Shown here: one piece after another, positions 37,886-45,006 of the stretch
Position numbering within the stretch: the first letter of the stretch is position 1
How the letters are laid out: every line of letters begins with the position of its first letter
Source: Anaerolinea sp.
Lineage (GTDB): Bacteria; Chloroflexota; Anaerolineae; Anaerolineales; Villigracilaceae
DNA: 64,000 bases
Reading direction: 5' to 3'
Assembly: GCA_020723805.1 (NCBI GenBank)
Contig: DYID01000013.1
Coordinates: 1 to 64,000, forward strand
Position numbers and translations under genes: made by a program
Notes under the pieces: generated by a model
The model's database searches: none
What the model was told of the DNA's origin: nothing
Seen by the model: only the letters and a program-made list of their open reading frames with translations

Positions 37886-40645
37886 ATGCCAGACCCAATC
37901 ACCAAACTTACCCAACTCGGACAATCCCTCTGGTACGACAACATCCAGCGCCGCCTGCTCGAAAACGGCGAACTCCAAGCCATGATCGAGCGCGGCGAGA
38001 TTCGCGGTGTCACATCCAACCCCGCCATCTTCAACAACGCCATCGCCAAAACCAGTGACTACGACTCCGCCCTCACGCCGCTTGCCTGGGCGGGCTGGGA
38101 CGCCGAAAAAATCTTCTGGCAGCTTGCCATTGAAGACATCAAAGCCGCCTGCAACGCCTTCCAACCGCTCTACGAAGAGTCGAACGGCGGCGACGGCTAC
38201 GTCAGCCTCGAGGTCAGCCCCTACATCGCGCACGACACCAACGCCACCGTCGCCCAAGCCGAGCAACTGTGGGCGCGCGTCCGCCGTCCGAACCTCATGG
38301 TCAAAATTCCCGCCACAAAGGAAGGCATCCCCGCCATCCGCAAGGCGATTGCCGCAGGCGTCAACGTCAACGTCACGCTTATCTTTTCACTGACGCGCTA
38401 TGCCGAAGTGATGAACGCCTACCTCAGCGGACTCGAAGACCGCCTTGCCGCAGGTCACCCCATTGACCATATCGCCTCGGTCGCCTCGTTCTTCGTCTCG
38501 CGCGTGGATTCCAAAATTGACCCCAAACTCCCCGAAGGTTCGCCTCTGCGCGGCAAAGCCGCCATCGCCAACGCCAAACTCGCCTACGACCTCTACCAGC
38601 AAACCTTCGCAGGACGCCGCTGGGAGAATCTCAAGGTCAAAGGCGCGCGCGTTCAGCGTCCGCTGTGGGCAAGCACCAGCACCAAGAATCCCGCCTACCC
38701 CGACACCATCTACGTGGACAACCTCATCGGACCCGAAACCGTCAACACCGTCCCGCCGCAAACGCTCGAAGCGTTCAAAGATCACGGCGTTGCCGAAGTG
38801 ACCCTCGTGCGCGGTCTCGATGAGGCGCGGGATGCCATCGCTCAACTCGAAGCGCTGGGCATCTCGATGGAAGTCGTCACGCAGGAACTGGAAGACGAGG
38901 GAGTCAAAGCCTTTGCGGACGCCTTCACGCAACTGCTTGCCACCATTGACGAACGCCGCAAAGCCGCCGCCTCTTCTCTTGGACCGATTGCTGATTCTGT
39001 TTCCAAACGGATTGCCCAACTGGAGGCGGATTCGGTCCCCGCCCGCCTGTGGCGGCATGACCCGTCGCTGTGGGCTTCGGAGAAAGACAAAGCCGGTCGG
39101 CACGAAGTGACCATCCGCATGGGCTGGCTCGATTCCACCGACAAGGCGCGCAGGAAGTTGAAGGAATATCAGACGTTCGCCAAAGAAATCAAAAAAGCCA
39201 AACTTGACCGCGTGCTTGTCCTCGGCATGGGCGGCTCCTCGTTGACCGCTGAAGTGTTCAGTTTACTTCTCCCCTCACTTTCAGAGAAAATGGGGGGAGA
39301 TCGAGAGGGGGGTCTCCGCCTGGGCATCCTCGACTCCACCGACCCCGCGCAAGTGGCGGAAGCCGCTCAAAACTTCCCGCCCGAAAAATCCCTCTACATC
39401 GTCGCCAGCAAATCGGGCGGCACAGCCGAAGTCATGGCGGCGTTCGAATACTTCTGGAAACTCAGCAAAAGAGACGGCTCGCACTTTGCTGCCATCACCG
39501 ACCCCGGCACCTCGCTCGAAGCGTTGGCGAGGAAACGCGGCTTCCGCAAAATCTTCCTTGCTGATGAGATGGTGGGCGGACGCTACTCCGCGCTGACCGA
39601 CTTCGGTCTCGTCCCTGCCGCGCTGCTCGGCGTGGACTTGACCCGTCTGCTCGACCGCGCGGACTGGATGCGGAATCAGTGTTCGGAGAATTGTCCCGCC
39701 GCGCGCGACCCCGGCTTGGCGCTGGGAGCCGTCCTGGGCGAGGCGGCTTTGGGCGGGCGCGACAAGTTGACGGTCCTGGCAGATGCGCCTGTATCCCCAT
39801 TCGCAAATTGGATCGAGCAAATCATCGCCGAGTCCAGCGGCAAGAACGGCAAAGGCATCCTGCCCGTCCCGCTGGAGCCGATTGGGAATCCCGAAGTCTA
39901 TGGCGATGACCGCATCTTCGTCTATCTCCGCCAAAGCGGCGAACACGACGAAGCGATTGCCAAACTGCAAGCCGCCGGTCACCCCGTTATCCAATTACCA
40001 ATTACTAATTTCTACGACATCGGCGCCGAAATCTACCGCTGGGAAATCGCCACCGCCGTTGCCTGTCATATTTTGGGCGTCAACGCCTTCGACCAGCCCA
40101 ACGTGGAATCGAGTAAGAAAATCACCAAGGCGAAGATTGCCGAATACCAGAAGAAGGGCAAACTGCGCGAGGGCAAGCCCGCATGGAAGAAGGACGGTGT
40201 GACGGTGTTCTCGCCGGCGGCGGTGAAGGGCGCGTCGCTGAAAGCAGTGTTGAACGGCTTTTTGAAGAAGGCAAAGAAGGGCGGCTATGTTGCCGTCAAC
40301 GCCTACCTGCCGCGCAACGCCGAAAACTCGGACGCCCTGCAAAAAATGCGCGCCGCCATCCGCGCCAAAACGGGCAACGCTGTGACGGCTGGCTTTGGTC
40401 CGCGCTTCCAGCACTCGACGGGGCAGTTCCACAAAGGCGGACCGAAGAACGCGCTGTTCCTTGTCATCACCGCCGAACCCGAAAAGGACATCGCCATCCC
40501 GAATCAGGGTCTGACCTTCGGCACGCTCATCCGCGCGCAGGCAGTGGGCGATTACGAAGCGCTGATTGAAGCGAAGAGGAAAGTACTGCGCGTCCATTTG
40601 CCGTCGATAAAAGCCATTGCTGAGATCGTCAAGGCTTTGGAATAA
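37886..40645 (+). CDS. tal-pgi: Bifunctional transaldolase / glucose-6-phosphate isomerase
   Basis: The 919-residue fusion has transaldolase at residues 1-360 ([13 protein letters not shown]; Schiff-base Lys in [30 protein letters not shown]) and glucose-6-phosphate isomerase after about 410 ([47 protein letters not shown]). The fusion couples the pentose phosphate pathway to glycolysis and is known in some Chloroflexota and cyanobacteria. Start ATG 37886 opens the transaldolase domain cleanly; the reading frame is open upstream but overlaps rpiB. A stretch CCAATTACCAATTACTAATT near 39990 (QLPITN) looks like an intergenic repeat motif inside the gene. Confidence 0.95.
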
Positions 40646-40650
40646 CGAGC

Positions 40651-40733
40651 TGATGTTACGCACCGTCCCGAAGGTTTGGCTGGAAAATAGACACAATTTG
40701 CGAAAACCTTCGGGACGGTGCGCGTAAGGTGAG
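40651..40733. repeat. Long palindromic repeat of the CCGTCCCGAAGG type
   Basis: GTTACGCACCGTCCCGAAGG (40655-40674) pairs with an almost perfect reverse copy ending at 40728. It can act as a terminator-like hairpin for the tkt operon. Its outer ends (TGATGTTACGC) are shared with the cloverleaf family at 16118. Confidence 0.8.
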
Positions 40734-40801
40734 GTTGTAACGGGCAAAAATTCGGTATGATAAAATTGACAAAACAAATCATCTTTTTTTGAGGCACTGT
40801 C

Positions 40802-41308
40802 ATGTCCGCACAAAAACTCTCCCGCCGCGAGGCACTCAAACTGCTGGCTGCCGCCACGGGCGCCGCCGCTCTCTCCACCCTGCCCCCTGCCTGGAGCAAA
40901 CCTGATTTACAAGTGGGCGCTTTGCCCGCCCATGCACAGACTTCGCTTCTTCATATCCTGAACACGCCTTTCCTTCCCGCAGAAATAGACTTAGGGCAGA
41001 GCTACTGTTGGGACGGCATCATCATCCGTTTTACAGCCGCTATTACCCCGCCTACGGCAGGAATTGTGCTGCAATATTCCCTTTCCTATAATCCTACAGG
41101 CGCCCCCGGTGCGATTACTTCGCCCAATCCAACAACCGGCACGGTAGCAACCAACGCGAGCGGACAGGCAAGCATTGATGTGACCGTCCTGCCTGCCAGT
41201 CCCTTCTTTGGTACGGAAGGCACTCTGACGGTCGTGTGGAGTTTTGTCAACCCAGCGGATGGCACGAACTCCGTTTCGCAAAACCATGATATTGTAGTTG
41301 CCTGTTAA
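40802..41308 (+). CDS. Tat-exported protein of unknown function, first gene of a PqqD/HprK-like operon
   Basis: The 168-residue protein has a twin-arginine signal, KLSRREALKLLAAATGAAAL, with likely cleavage after ALPAHAQ (residue 46). The mature part is about 120 residues, rich in Thr, Ser, Pro and Gly, with alternating strands that suggest an Ig-like domain. It has only two cysteines: Cys-69 in SYCWDG and Cys-168, the very last residue, which could pair or carry a modification. GAGG lies 7 bases before the ATG. Its stop overlaps the PqqD-like start by one base, so it is probably the substrate or reporter of that system. I do not recognise a named family. Confidence 0.75.
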   Translation: MSAQKLSRREALKLLAAATGAAALSTLPPAWSKPDLQVGALPAHAQTSLLHILNTPFLPAEIDLGQSYCWDGIIIRFTAAITPPTAGIVLQYSLSYNPTGAPGAITSPNPTTGTVATNASGQASIDVTVLPASPFFGTEGTLTVVWSFVNPADGTNSVSQNHDIVVAC

Positions 41309-41580
41309 TGGACCCGAACCTTTACCTGTGGCATGAAGAAGGATTTCAGTTGGAAACGCTGAACGGTGAAATTGTTCTCCTTCACCCTGTCCGTAACATC
41401 ATCATTCATGGCAGTCAGACCGCCTCACTTGTCTGGCAGTTGTGCGACGGCAGCCGCACGGTGGGCGCGATTGTGGAACTGTTGAGCGCGGCATATCCCG
41501 AGTCTGCCGACGACATCCAAAACGATGTCCCTGCCGCCATTCAGATGTTAATCAATCAAGGCGCATTGACGACCAAGTGA
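41308..41580 (+). CDS. PqqD-like peptide-binding protein (RRE fold)
   Basis: The 90-residue protein has the PqqD layout: a three-strand wing (FQLETLNGEIVLLHPVRNII), then GSQTASLVWQLCDGSRTVGA and the helix bundle IVELLSAAYPESADDIQNDV ending IQMLINQGALTTK. PqqD domains bind leader peptides of ribosomally made peptides, but related free-standing proteins also occur beside HprK-like kinases in polysaccharide or exported-protein loci. ATG 41308 overlaps the upstream stop (TAATG). There is no radical-SAM gene here. Confidence 0.82.
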   Translation: MDPNLYLWHEEGFQLETLNGEIVLLHPVRNIIIHGSQTASLVWQLCDGSRTVGAIVELLSAAYPESADDIQNDVPAAIQMLINQGALTTK

Positions 41581-42416
41581 GCGTCGGTACCTCCTGCGAC
41601 CACTTCATTCACTTTGCGGGCAATACGATTGGGGTCACCTCTGCCGACCCGCAGGTGTGCCGGGCAATCGAAACACACTTTAGGCATTGCCTGGGCGAAC
41701 ACGCACCGTCAATCGCAACCTACAAAATCACTGCCGTTGACCAAACCGGCTTTTCCATTTCGGTCAACGGCAGTGATTTATTGTCGAAATTTAGCCTGGG
41801 GCAGGCGATGCATTTCCTCATGCAAGACGGTCTCACCCGTTTGAACGGCGCGTCGGCAACCCACCTTGTCTTCCATGCCGCCGCTCTGGCACACCACAAG
41901 CAGGGAATCATCTTGTGTGGAAAAAGCGGCAGCGGAAAATCCACCCTGGCGGCATGGCTCACTGCCGCAGGGATGCAATATCTCACCGATGAAGTGATTT
42001 CCCTTGCCGTGAACGAAGAAAACATCAGCGGTTTTTGCCGTTCGATCGTTCTCAAACCGGGTTCAGCCTTTGTGTGGCGGAATTTGACGGCTGAAAACAG
42101 CATATTCCATCCTGACGATAACAGCGCCTGGGTCTCCCCAACCTTGCTCAATCCCACCGCCCCTTGCGCGAACGTCACACCGCGTATCCTGCTCTTCCCC
42201 CAATACACACCCGGCGCGCCTCTCCGCACTCAGCGGCTCACGCCAGCCGAAGCCTTGTTTCGCCTGTTGCAGTGCCTGGTCAACTCCCGTAACTTTCCCG
42301 ATGGCGGCATGAGCGCCGCCGCCCGCCTCACCCGACAAGTCCACGCCTACACCCTCGAATACTCCGACCTCGAAACCGTCGCGCAATGGATCACACAGAC
42401 CGCCTCCAAGCCATAG
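41577..42416 (+). CDS. HprK-like P-loop kinase
   Basis: The 279-residue protein has an N-terminal domain of about 95 residues and a kinase domain related to the C-terminal half of HPr kinase: HLVFHAAALAHHKQGIILCG, Walker A GKSGSGKSTLAAWL (residues 115-128) and YLTDEVISLAV with the acidic residues after the first beta-hairpin. No HPr protein is encoded nearby, and the HprK capture loop is not evident. The start is GTG 41577, overlapping the PqqD-like stop (GTGA); an upstream reading frame merely runs inside the previous gene. Related kinases modify lasso-peptide precursors. Confidence 0.82.
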   Translation: MSVGTSCDHFIHFAGNTIGVTSADPQVCRAIETHFRHCLGEHAPSIATYKITAVDQTGFSISVNGSDLLSKFSLGQAMHFLMQDGLTRLNGASATHLVFHAAALAHHKQGIILCGKSGSGKSTLAAWLTAAGMQYLTDEVISLAVNEENISGFCRSIVLKPGSAFVWRNLTAENSIFHPDDNSAWVSPTLLNPTAPCANVTPRILLFPQYTPGAPLRTQRLTPAEALFRLLQCLVNSRNFPDGGMSAAARLTRQVHAYTLEYSDLETVAQWITQTASKP

Positions 42417-43528
42417 ACCCGACCTACCGCTTGCTTGCCTTGTGCGCCCGCGCGGTTGGGCATCCCGTTTTCTACGAGCGGTTAGCCCGTCAGTGTGAGC
42501 GTTTCGACGCCTGGCAAACCTTGCCTGCCCAAGCCGAACTACACGGTATGGCGCCTTTACTCTGGCATCACCTGCACACAGCCGGCATCCCTCTCCCCGC
42601 CGAAACCGAACAGACCTTGCGCGGCTTGTACCTGCGTCACCGTCTGCACAACCACGCCCACCTGACCGCGCTCAAAGAAATCAACGCACGATTCGAACGG
42701 GCGGGTATTCGCGCCGTGCTTCTCAAGGGACTGGCGCTTGCCCATCAATGCTATCCCGATCCCGCCCTGCGTCCGGTCAGCGACATTGACCTCCTGCTCG
42801 AACGCGAAGACCTATTGCCTGCTCTGGATTCCCTGACGAAAGCGGGTTTTTCCCTTCACCCGCCTCACGCTTCGCGGACCTCGAACCTGCTCCCCAGCGA
42901 ACTGAAACTGACCTCCCCCCTGACAGCGGGCGTCCATGTGCAGGTCGAGCTGCATTCTCCAGCCGCCCACGACCACACATACGAGGAATTTGGAGACCTC
43001 GAAGCCGCCCAGCCTCTCGGCAGTGTGGGGAATGCCATCTTCGTTTCCGCTCCCTTGAACACGCTCCGCTATCTTTCCCGCCATCTCAGGCGTCATCTGT
43101 TCGCTGCCACTGCCTCCAAGCCTCTGCCCCTCAAGTGGATGGCAGACATGGTCAGCCTCGCCGAACAAAATGCGGAGACACTGGATTGGCTTGCATTGAA
43201 GCGCCTCGATCCAACCCTCATCAGCCAACTCGAGGTGTTCTACAGCCTCACACCACTTCCTGATCACATGAAAGCGGTACTCCCCATCCAACAAATTCCT
43301 CCGCCGCGTGGTGTCAATCAATATCCTGCCGGCTGGCCCCAACAGCATTTTTCATCCTGGAAGGATGTGGGGCTAATTCAATTCCTTCGCCGCACCTTCT
43401 CTACTCCATCCGAATGGTGGCTGAGATTGTATTTTGGCGGCGGCAGGCTGGGCGTTTGGCGCGGACGCATCCTGTATCCTGCGCTGATTCTCCGCCGCAT
43501 CCTCCGCACCTTGCTCCAAACGCATTGA
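42386..43528 (+). CDS. Nucleotidyltransferase family protein (NTP_transf_5 type)
   Basis: The 380-residue protein carries the family signature AVLLKGLALAHQCYPDPALR followed by PVSDIDLLLER: Lys-114/Gly-115 and the metal-binding pair Asp-133, Asp-135. Helical regions flank this core. Such proteins recur with PqqD-like and HprK-like genes, including in some lasso-peptide clusters, but their reaction is unknown. It overlaps the kinase gene by 31 bases, completing a four-gene overlapping operon. Confidence 0.82.
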   Translation: MDHTDRLQAIDPTYRLLALCARAVGHPVFYERLARQCERFDAWQTLPAQAELHGMAPLLWHHLHTAGIPLPAETEQTLRGLYLRHRLHNHAHLTALKEINARFERAGIRAVLLKGLALAHQCYPDPALRPVSDIDLLLEREDLLPALDSLTKAGFSLHPPHASRTSNLLPSELKLTSPLTAGVHVQVELHSPAAHDHTYEEFGDLEAAQPLGSVGNAIFVSAPLNTLRYLSRHLRRHLFAATASKPLPLKWMADMVSLAEQNAETLDWLALKRLDPTLISQLEVFYSLTPLPDHMKAVLPIQQIPPPRGVNQYPAGWPQQHFSSWKDVGLIQFLRRTFSTPSEWWLRLYFGGGRLGVWRGRILYPALILRRILRTLLQTH

Positions 43529-43569
43529 CAACTGTTCGTTCGCAATTTGTTAGAAATTCTGGCGTGTAC

Positions 43570-43636
43570 TCGGCGTTCTCCCTTCGGCAAGGCTCAGGGC
43601 AGGCTTGCGCCGACGGACACGTTAGAGAACGTGTCC
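43570..43636. repeat. Composite palindromic repeats
   Basis: A CCTTCGGCAAGGCTCAGGGC element (43581-43600) is followed by the hairpin GGACACGTT-AGAG-AACGTGTCC (43615-43636). The second resembles hairpins after the amidohydrolase gene at 54298, the first resembles the insert at 16172. Confidence 0.6.
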
Positions 43637-43684
43637 TACGCCTCTTAATCATTTTTGACCGGCTGCATCGAGGCAGATTGGGTC

Positions 43685-43728
43685 AAAAAACTTCCGAAGC
43701 CTTTCGACTTCGGAAGTTTGCTTTTTTA
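43685..43728. terminator. Bidirectional terminator between 42386-43528 and pdhC
   Basis: A 12-bp stem (43688-43699 with 43708-43719, core CTTCCGAAG) is followed by TGCTTTTTT on the plus strand and TTTTTTGA on the minus strand. It ends at the pdhC stop codon. Confidence 0.88.
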
Positions 43729-45006
43729 CACCAGCATCCTCACGGGGTTTTCCAAAAACTCCGCCAGTTTCTGCATGAATTGCGCCGCCTCCGCCCCGTC
43801 GCTGACGCGGTGGTCAACGGAGATGGTGGCTTTCATCCGCCAGCCGATTTTAATTTGACCGCTTTCGACGACAGGGACTTCCTTTGCGGAGCCGATTGCC
43901 AAAATCGCGGCTTCGGGCGGGTTGATGATGGCGATGAACTCGTCCACATCGTACATGCCGAGATTGGACGTGGAGAACGTCGAACCTTCGACATCTTCGG
44001 GCTTGACCTTGCCTTCGCGGGCGCGCGCCGCCATTGCCTTGATCTCGCCCGAAATCTGACGCAGGGGTTTGGCGTCCGCGTCTTTCACGACGACGGTCAT
44101 CAGCCCGCCGGGGACGGTCACTGCCACGCCGACGTTGACGTGTCCGAACTGGATGATCTCATTGCCCTTGAGAGTTGCGTTGAGATTTGGGAATTGCCGC
44201 AGCGCGAGCGCAACCGCCTTGACGATGAAGTCGTTGACGGAGAGTTTTTCATTGTCGGGCAGGAAGGCGTTGGCTTGTTTGCGCATCTCCATCAGCGCGT
44301 CCATCTTGTATTCGTGCGTGACGTAGAAGTGCGGGATGGTGGTTTTCGATTCGACTAGGCGGCGTCCAATGGCTTGGCGGAGTTTTGTAGTAGGAACAAC
44401 TTTATCTTCGGTGGTAATTGGTAATTGGTAATTGGTAATTGGCGCCAAGGGAGTCGCAGGACGAACGTCGGAGGTCTGTGCTGCTCCAGCCAACGCTGCT
44501 TCAACATCTTTTCGAACCACGCGTCCGCCAGGTCCCGTGCCTTGGATGGAGGCAAGATTGACATTGTTGTCTTTCGCAATCTTCTTCGCGAGCGGGGATG
44601 CTTTCACGACCGACGATTGACCATGGACGGCAGACGATGAATCAGCGGGGGAAACTGCCTGGGTTGTCGAAACAGGCATGGGTTGAGTCTGAGGCGCAAC
44701 GTCCGACTTTCGGCTTTCAACCTTAGACTGATTACTGATCACTGGTGACTGATCACTGATCTTTTCCCCAGCCTGACCCACCACCGCAATCGGCGCGTTG
44801 ACGGGAACGACCGTCCCCTGCTCGACGATGTGCTGAAGGACAACGCCGCTCGCGGGAGATTCCACCTCCACAGTGGCTTTGTCCGTTTCGATTTCGGCAA
44901 GCACGTCGCCTTTTTTGATTTCTTCGCCAACCTGCTTCACCCAGCGGACGAGCGTGCCTTCCGCCATGTCGAAGCCGAGTTTGGGCATGTTGATGGTTTC
45001 AGCCAT
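43726..45006 (-). CDS. pdhC: Dihydrolipoamide acyltransferase (E2) of a 2-oxoacid dehydrogenase complex
   Basis: The 426-residue protein has an N-terminal lipoyl domain with Lys-43 in EIETDKATVEVES, an E3/E1-binding domain (SPLAKKIAKDNNVNLASIQG) and a C-terminal acyltransferase domain with ISVDHRVSDGAEAAQF (catalytic His and Asp-Gly). Two linkers separate the domains; both contain stretches encoded by simple repeats seen between genes elsewhere in the window (44413-44442 and 44725-44762). It follows E1-beta with a one-base overlap. Pyruvate is the likely substrate, but branched-chain oxoacids are possible. Confidence 0.94.
   Translation of the reverse strand: MAETINMPKLGFDMAEGTLVRWVKQVGEEIKKGDVLAEIETDKATVEVESPASGVVLQHIVEQGTVVPVNAPIAVVGQAGEKISDQSPVISNQSKVESRKSDVAPQTQPMPVSTTQAVSPADSSSAVHGQSSVVKASPLAKKIAKDNNVNLASIQGTGPGGRVVRKDVEAALAGAAQTSDVRPATPLAPITNYQLPITTEDKVVPTTKLRQAIGRRLVESKTTIPHFYVTHEYKMDALMEMRKQANAFLPDNEKLSVNDFIVKAVALALRQFPNLNATLKGNEIIQFGHVNVGVAVTVPGGLMTVVVKDADAKPLRQISGEIKAMAARAREGKVKPEDVEGSTFSTSNLGMYDVDEFIAIINPPEAAILAIGSAKEVPVVESGQIKIGWRMKATISVDHRVSDGAEAAQFMQKLAEFLENPVRMLV
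44413..44442. repeat. In-gene tandem repeat GGTAATT x4 in the E2 linker
   Basis: Four units of GGTAATT lie in frame and encode the linker residues PITNYQLPITT on the minus strand. Confidence 0.85.
44725..44762. repeat. In-gene heptamer repeat in the first E2 linker
   Basis: Units of the ACTGATC/ACTGGTG type encode KISDQSPVISNQS between the lipoyl and binding domains. The same heptamers form the intergenic repeats at 45991-46070 and 59341-59438. Confidence 0.8.

Follow-up and report, generated by a model that had tools for sequence, protein, structure and literature searches.

The stretch analysed here (the window, 64,000 nucleotides, positions 1–64,000 of DYID01000013.1; contig C43 of a host genome of 3.69 Mb that is 97% complete) carries on its + strand, at 40802–43528, an operon of four genes for a protein with a twin-arginine translocation (Tat) signal, a PqqD-like protein, an HprK-like kinase and a nucleotidyltransferase-like protein of the NTP_transf_5 family (NTase). 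In this work we find that these genes are linked in many other genomes, that what the Tat proteins have in common is an extended signal peptide (the tag), that this tag stands in front of unrelated mature proteins (the cargo), which are exchanged behind it, and that tag and kinase occur together in whole genomes. The operon is a real and widespread system, and the description that suits it best is a variant, routed through Tat, of the modification by a recognition element of ribosomally synthesized and post-translationally modified peptides (RRE), a kinase and an NTase. From its sequence patterns and its likeness to known clusters, we consider it probable that the system is a relative of the linear polyphosphorylated peptide (LPP) systems, in which the signal peptide would be the RRE leader, Ser48 would be phosphorylated by the kinase and a further group would be added, all before export. 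The features on which this reading rests are the following.

40802–41308, +, Tat-exported protein, predicted substrate (168 aa, C-terminal residue Cys; TIGR01409, 24.9 bits, cut-off 16.7)
40802–40936, +, Tat signal peptide, predicted to double as RRE leader (residues 1–45, SRREALK ... LPAHA)
40892–40909, +, W31-x-x-P34-x-L36, predicted RRE-binding motif, fitting the [Y/W]xxPx[L/V/I/F/A] of PMC13381572
40943–40945, +, Ser48, predicted phosphorylation site at +3 from the predicted cut (conserved Ser/Thr; analogy with LppA core Ser3)
40937–41305, +, mature beta-sandwich domain (cargo), with a predicted disulfide C69–C168 (AlphaFold2, Cys covariation)
41308–41580, +, PqqD-like protein, the RRE (90 aa; PF05402, 56 bits, cut-off 23.4)
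41577–42416, +, HprK-like kinase (279 aa, assuming a GTG start at 41577; TIGR04352, 99.3 bits)
42386–43528, +, NTP_transf_5 nucleotidyltransferase-like protein (380 aa; PF14907, 133.5 bits, cut-off 31.2)

Successive genes overlap by 1, 4 and 31 bases, as the first-pass annotation of this DNA had stated, and its four family calls agree with the matches to TIGR01409, PF05402, TIGR04352 (below cut-off) and PF14907. The open reading frame (ORF) list calls the kinase frame as 324 aa from 41442, the 279-aa length assuming the GTG start. The PqqD gene is the sole PF05402 match in the host genome (E 0.001), which has one match each to the TatC and signal peptidase I families.

Linkage of the four genes

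When 150 genomes were searched with the kinase, 31 had a match; it was full-length in 11 (the window's genome being one of these) and weaker or partial in the rest. Nine of the ten other strong loci (L032–L040, with L036 and L040 truncated at the end of a contig) have the Tat, PqqD, kinase and NTase genes in the same order; in the tenth, L041, PqqD plus NTase genes are separated from the kinase gene, and two Tat genes lie next to these halves of the set. The same-genus locus L032 also keeps the 4- and 31-base overlaps. When named species genomes were scanned with the kinase alignment, 39 loci were found, 23 with PqqD and kinase (L052–L074) and 16 with other HprK-like kinases (L075–L090); nine of the 23 were taken as the same contigs as L032–L040, so that this count is not independent of the earlier one. 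The 23 loci span Chloroflexota, Desulfobulbus relatives and one gammaproteobacterium. A Tat homologue is present on 22 of them, and the first gene is thus conserved with the other three, the point by which the first-pass annotation had proposed to judge its own interpretation; all four genes, in the window order and on one strand, are found in 17 of the 23. In the exception, L065, the cassette is at the contig start, and a different contig of that genome bears a full tag. L059 has lost the Tat N-terminus to a contig end, order or strand differs in L068, L069, L070, L072 and L074, and no NTase was detected on the L072 locus. All 16 loci with other HprK-like kinases lack both the tag and a Tat homologue. 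In the genomes of 22 of the 39 loci, the full tag was found in 14 of 14 cassette genomes and in none of the 8 with other HprK-like kinases.

Whole-genome counts give the same association. Among 251 genomes of the order of the window host, 8 have both tag and kinase, 2 the tag only, 1 the kinase only and 240 neither, with thresholds that were set after the scores had been seen (at least 58 bits for the full tag, 10 genomes; at least 152 bits for the kinase, 9 genomes) and that treat weaker matches as absent (Tat at up to about 35 bits, 55 genomes; kinase at up to 44 bits, 9 genomes). The Tat gene of the kinase-only genome (G057) is cut by a contig end; in the tag-only genomes G018 and G293 the tag lies on contigs of 4,869 and 3,104 bases, with an adjoining PqqD gene in G018. 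For the class of the Desulforhopalus genome G317 (192 genomes, kinase threshold E 1e-10 or better, 43 genomes), the corresponding numbers are 29, 0, 14 and 149, three of the 29 tagged genomes (G315, G317 and G318) having contributed sequences to the search alignment. Fisher p values, which ignore relatedness, are 1e-12 and 4e-24, respectively. In Gammaproteobacteria the test is weak (p 0.01): TIGR04352 matches occur in 34 of 229 genomes, over cut-off in 21, and the full tag in 4, three of them with a sub-cut-off kinase match, while a fifth genome has a partial tag only. None of the 21 gammaproteobacterial genomes with an over-cut-off TIGR04352 kinase has the full tag.

The Tat signal peptide as a shared tag

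The window Tat protein is over the cut-off of TIGR01409 and below that of Pfam TAT_signal (16.9 bits, cut-off 22.7), and AHA suggests a signal-peptidase cut after A45. Fourteen residues within positions 7–48 are invariant in 10 sequences, and the W and P of WxxPx[VIL] in all 16 aligned sequences. What the loci share is an extended Tat signal, roughly WxxPx[VIL]xxxxLPAHA/xTS with the predicted cut at the slash, and not the mature protein; it spans the first 50 or so residues, RR being followed by LPx[KR]WxxPx[VIL]xxxxLP[AV]HAxTS. Our strict counting pattern fixes the W, three Pro and one Ala and lets other positions vary freely. The 68 distinct proteins that fit it have His in 67 cases, Thr at +2 (Thr47 in the window) in 58, and at +3 Ser in 65 and Thr in 3. 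This count omits 19 matches, namely 12 variants lacking the Pro before xxW (Thr at +3 in 9, Ser in 3), 3 cut by the locus end and 4 ordinary Tat proteins. When the 12 variants are added to the strict set, all 80 tagged proteins have a hydroxyl residue at +3 (Ser 68, Thr 12), and +3 is the only position of the signal/mature junction for which this holds.

That the tag is merely an ordinary Tat signal can be rejected, as the 13 other matches in the host genome reach at most profile position 35 of 54, and W..P.[VILMA] occurs in the first 75 residues of none of 28 control ORFs (drawn from 29 loci, a few of them chance ORFs rather than Tat proteins). A separate precursor was also sought, and that reading was rejected. 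None of 12 ORFs of 20–120 aa at 40300–40850 and 43400–43900 contains [YW]..P.[LVIFA], and the two of 34 short ORFs inside the operon that match it are both on the opposite strand.

Genome G317 has ten tag sites on nine contigs, one site being interrupted by stop codons, and kinase matches on contigs C99, C76 and C94; C99 is the only one of the nine tag contigs that also has a kinase match. Because most tag sites lie on contigs without a kinase match, the tag seems to work in trans. At L271 (8415–13362, minus strand) three tagged genes follow one another near one cassette, separated by fragments that we take to resemble group-II-intron reverse transcriptases. A variant tag, KWxKPVVxSxILPAHAQAT, with Thr at +3, is found in L228, L230, L232 and L234, and three of these four genomes (G693, G729 and G740) have a kinase fused to a GT2 glycosyltransferase. 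ORFs of about 55–75 aa with RR and an aromatic-xxPx[VIAM] stretch lie next to HprK-like kinases at L197 (898–1089 and 2543–2731), L198 (2173–2346, minus strand) and L195 (2780–3025, minus strand), the L198 locus also having a PqqD-like ORF; they are possibly a second tag class, with the motif within the hydrophobic region.

Exchange of the cargo

The mature part of the window protein is predicted by AlphaFold2 to be folded (block-mean pLDDT 88–96 from residue 71 onward), and fold searches gave weak matches only (TM no higher than about 0.4 relative to query length, with a single E value below 0.001). It is nearest to those of L038 and L040 (89/120 identical residues each); signal, PqqD, kinase and NTase are nearest to L032. 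Compared with L032, identities are 44/48 in the signal, 42/111 in the mature part, 58/90 in PqqD, 204/279 in the kinase and 278/380 in the NTase; outside the mature part, those with L038 are 34/48, 44/89, 132/269 and 163/369 in the same order. Since the mature domain and the rest of the operon have different nearest relatives, the former was probably replaced behind the tag, by a change near AHAQTS. The pN/pS ratio against L032 is 0.10 for the signal and 0.26–0.38 for the PqqD, kinase and NTase genes; the 0.64 of the mature part compares exchanged domains and is not to be read as relaxed selection. With 44/48 identical residues between two same-genus relatives whose cargo differs, the export signal seems to be selected for recognition by a second reader as well.

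Across loci the mature parts range from beta-sandwich to discoidin-like (L067, PF00754), poly-Thr (L074) and Pro-Thr repeats (L140), and beyond Anaerolineales they look unrelated. Ten tagged proteins scanned with Pfam (E 0.01) gave no match in five cases, sub-cut-off signal-type matches only in three, one sub-cut-off AAA and one discoidin-type domain. The proposal that a folded Tat protein is the substrate therefore suits the window's domain but does not generalize, as the common part is the signal peptide and the cargo is sometimes of low complexity. The first-pass annotation had also proposed to check whether the first gene always has a Tat signal and a terminal Cys. A terminal and an internal Cys are both present in 7 of 11 proteins and both lacking in 4 (a twelfth, L036, is omitted as its gene is cut, its visible part not ending in Cys). 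Because the two Cys are gained and lost together, we predict a disulfide pair: the terminal Cys is likely a disulfide partner, and its role as a modification handle was rejected on the same covariation. The Tat protein at L037 (9897–10751, minus strand) has two beta-sandwich copies and no Cys.

The PqqD-like protein and the putative modifying enzymes

The PqqD-like protein belongs to the RRE domain by its winged helix–turn–helix fold, its structural matches to RRE–leader complexes and its profile matches to LppB, TbiB1 and TfuB1. Searched against the PDB, the family profile finds LppB first (9x8z_B, E 8.6e-5) by a small margin over TbiB1 (1e-4), TfuB1 (2.9e-4) and PqqC/D (3.6e-4). The AlphaFold2 model (pLDDT 92) has as its top Foldseek matches the TbiB1/TfuB1 leader complexes 5v1v (E 2.6e-4, the one below 0.001), 5v1u and 6jx3. 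LppB binds its leader through N33 and D70 (PMC13381572), which align with N36 (48/50 rows) and D73 (41/50 rows) of the family. The window protein is below cut-off for the PQQ biosynthesis PqqD (TIGR03859, 42.5 bits, cut-off 46) and gives no TIGR04353 match at E up to 1.

Several positions are conserved in both enzymes: of 56 distinct kinase rows, 55 have H100, K121, D138 and E139 and one has a gap there, and all 47 distinct NTase rows have D133, D135, E188 and H190. We picked seven kinase ORFs for unusual length and scanned them with Pfam, leaving out other long frames of about 390–430 aa; six carry glycosyltransferase domains (L074, L244, L245, L246, L267 and L268) and the seventh, L262, a PqqD domain. 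These fusions, from lineages other than the window's, favour a sugar-containing decoration. Much of the Thr at +3 comes from genomes with a glycosyltransferase-fused kinase (L074, L230, L232 and L234), which are perhaps a sub-group of other specificity, and Ser is found in the fusion genomes L267 and L268. At L267 (3359–6610, minus strand) a 1084-aa ORF adjoining a tagged Tat gene combines an HprK-like kinase, GT2, GT25 and a sulfotransferase.

On these grounds we propose that the PqqD-like RRE would bind WxxPxL in the c-region of the Tat signal, as motif and fold suggest, and would so offer the signal/mature junction to the kinase. By analogy with LPP, the kinase would phosphorylate Ser48, perhaps repeatedly, and the NTP_transf_5 protein might then add a sugar or a nucleotide to the phosphate, as pseudomycoidin and the kinase–glycosyltransferase fusions of other lineages suggest. 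After Tat export, the general signal peptidase I would cut behind AHA, giving a decorated N-terminus x-T-S, with the decoration on the Ser. The first-pass annotation had suggested that the PqqD-like protein presents the Tat protein to the kinase and the NTase before export; this gains support, as the Tat gene travels with the cassette, its signal holds an RRE-type motif and no separate short ORF with that motif was found directly beside the operon, and the annotation's interpretation as a whole is partly supported.

Surroundings of the operon

A Pfam scan (E 1e-10) covered ten ORFs flanking the operon, within 32.6–49.6 kb, one of which had no match. They include transketolase, RpiB, a transaldolase–phosphoglucose isomerase fusion directly upstream of the operon (37886–40642) and 2-oxoacid dehydrogenase subunits, and contain no cyclase, leader protease, radical-SAM enzyme or exosortase, in agreement with the first-pass annotation. 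A terminator-like 12-pair stem followed by T's (43688–43719) separates the operon from the 2-oxoacid dehydrogenase E2 gene, which is convergent with it; five such sites were found in the region for 3.9 expected by chance.

Comparison with known systems

LPP clusters of Bacillota encode an RRE (LppB), a kinase (LppK), an NTP transferase (LppN), a peptidase (LppS), an exporter and one to three precursors of 35–200 aa with a conserved N-terminus and a variable C-terminus; the precursor motif is YxxPxVLxHQxIxFETxxS, cleaved after the T, and core Ser3 is phosphorylated one to four times (PMC13381572). The window system shares with them the set of RRE, HprK-like kinase and NTP transferase in one cluster, the [Y/W]xxPx[L/V/I/F/A] motif in the precursor N-terminus (WxxPxL, residues 31–36) and the Ser at +3 after the cut (here a predicted one), 17 residues from the aromatic residue here and 18 in LPP by that paper's numbering. 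It differs in that the full consensus is absent, the window reading WSKPDLQVGALPAHAQTS and agreeing only in xxP and the xxS end: HQxIxFET is missing, and the motif starts with Trp and is embedded in a Tat signal. Neither an archaeal-type peptidase such as LppS nor an MsbA-like exporter was found among the ten flanking ORFs; the sole PF10502 match of the genome is on another contig, and a Tat signal is present instead of the exporter. Moreover, cargo here includes folded domains, tagged genes are dispersed in some genomes, and the hosts are not Bacillota. The window system works like LPP in plan and is not an LPP member by the features compared; filing it there was rejected, as the dedicated peptidase and exporter were not found in the locus.

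Other families are alike in part. WxxPx[VIL] is of the RRE-bound type found in lasso and LPP leaders, paeninodins having a WxxP leader (PMC13381572). Paeninodin and pseudomycoidin clusters also pair an HprK-like kinase (PadeK/PsmK) and a nucleotidyltransferase homologue (PsmN) with an RRE-linked precursor, PsmN being required for the hexose on phospho-Ser (PMC9266682). However, the macrolactam cyclase and B2 leader protease of lasso peptides are absent from the operon and the ten flanking ORFs, and the modified Ser is C-terminal there and near the predicted mature N-terminus here. The kinase of HPr-rel-A (TIGR04352 kinase, TIGR04353 PqqD) belongs to the same broad family; an ORF weakly matching the NTase model (13–36 bits) adjoins 15 of the 21 kinases above the cut-off, and the L074 PqqD reaches 28.6 bits with TIGR04353 (cut-off 35). 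Assignment to HPr-rel-A was nevertheless rejected, the window kinase scoring 99.3 bits (E 2e-28) with TIGR04352 (HprK_rel_A) against a cut-off of 200 and the tag being absent from the 21 over-cut-off genomes of the gammaproteobacterial sample. C-terminal sorting tags such as PEP-CTERM, with its exosortase, are short tags common to unrelated secreted proteins and served by one processing system. The tag described here resembles them in standing on unrelated secreted proteins, but is N-terminal, lies inside the export signal and would be read by an RRE and a kinase. In the open-licence literature we found no published description of the Tat-linked set, and a substrate for PqqD, HprK-like kinase and NTP_transf_5 only in lasso and LPP clusters.

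Alternative explanations

Several observations weigh against the LPP-like modification of Ser48. The window PqqD protein alone matches LppB only at E 0.14, and has Ser (S36) at the N33-equivalent position, where the family has Asn in all but two rows. LppK phosphorylation is abolished by changing Ser3 to Thr (PMC13381572), whereas Thr occupies +3 in 12 of the 80 tagged proteins. Kinase matches occur without the tag in 14 of the 192 genomes and, below cut-off, in 10 gammaproteobacterial genomes, and the tagged gammaproteobacterial genome G406 lacks a TIGR04352 match at E 1e-10. The ten flanking ORFs include no glycosyltransferase. The weakest part of the proposal is the NTase step, because deletion of LppN had no effect in the LPP test system (PMC13381572) and because a role of a host enzyme was not excluded in the case of PsmN (PMC9266682).

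Redox-enzyme maturation proteins are chaperones of Tat signals, and on their model the PqqD-like protein might be a proofreading chaperone, the kinase and the NTP_transf_5 protein regulating this chaperone or the translocase rather than a substrate. The position of the RRE motif within the Tat signal suits this idea, as does a tag kept on unrelated cargo, which implies no specific product. We nevertheless find it unlikely: the LPP and lasso sets of RRE, kinase and NTase modify the RRE-bound precursor (PMC13381572, PMC9266682), the invariable hydroxyl at +3 lies beyond the signal and is not needed for proofreading, and kinases are fused to glycosyltransferases. Still less probable is that the tag is a docking site only and that the Tat protein is modified elsewhere than at Ser48, either at Thr47, given the frequent Thr at +2, or in Thr/Ser-rich tails such as the poly-Thr and Pro-Thr repeat cargos; further cargos lack such tails, and +3, the one junction position that is always a hydroxyl, matches LppA Ser3. 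We regard it as highly improbable that the order of the genes was simply inherited and has no functional meaning. In favour of this are the kinship of the sampled Chloroflexota and Fisher values that disregard descent; against it, the genes around the cassette vary from locus to locus, other phyla show this linkage together with unrelated cargo, and one genome has, besides its cassette, tag genes on contigs without a kinase match. Least credible of all is that the functional end of the Tat protein is its terminal Cys; seven proteins (the window's and those of six relatives) end in Cys, but four cassette-linked proteins have neither Cys, which with the covariation of the two contradicts the idea, and the unrelated cargos examined do not end in Cys.

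Implications

If LPP-like modification of Ser48 is correct, RRE-directed phosphorylation would not be confined to short peptides but would also act on whole proteins exported by Tat, at the least in Chloroflexota, Gammaproteobacteria and the relatives of Desulfobulbus. The set of PqqD, HprK-like kinase and NTP_transf_5 would then have a named substrate, with W31, P34 and L36 as docking residues and Ser48 as one acceptor. There is a broader and more tentative reading, which we find possible while leaning slightly against it: a general N-terminal tagging system in several phyla, with up to ten tag sites in one genome. A Tat signal with an RRE leader as its c-region would mark unrelated secreted proteins, and a kinase together with an NTase or a glycosyltransferase would build a phospho-linked glycan or other group on the first residues of the mature part, in the cytoplasm and before export; the group might serve as a surface anchor. 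If so, sorting would depend on a tag that is read ahead of export, and the system would be an RRE pathway for whole proteins instead of peptides.

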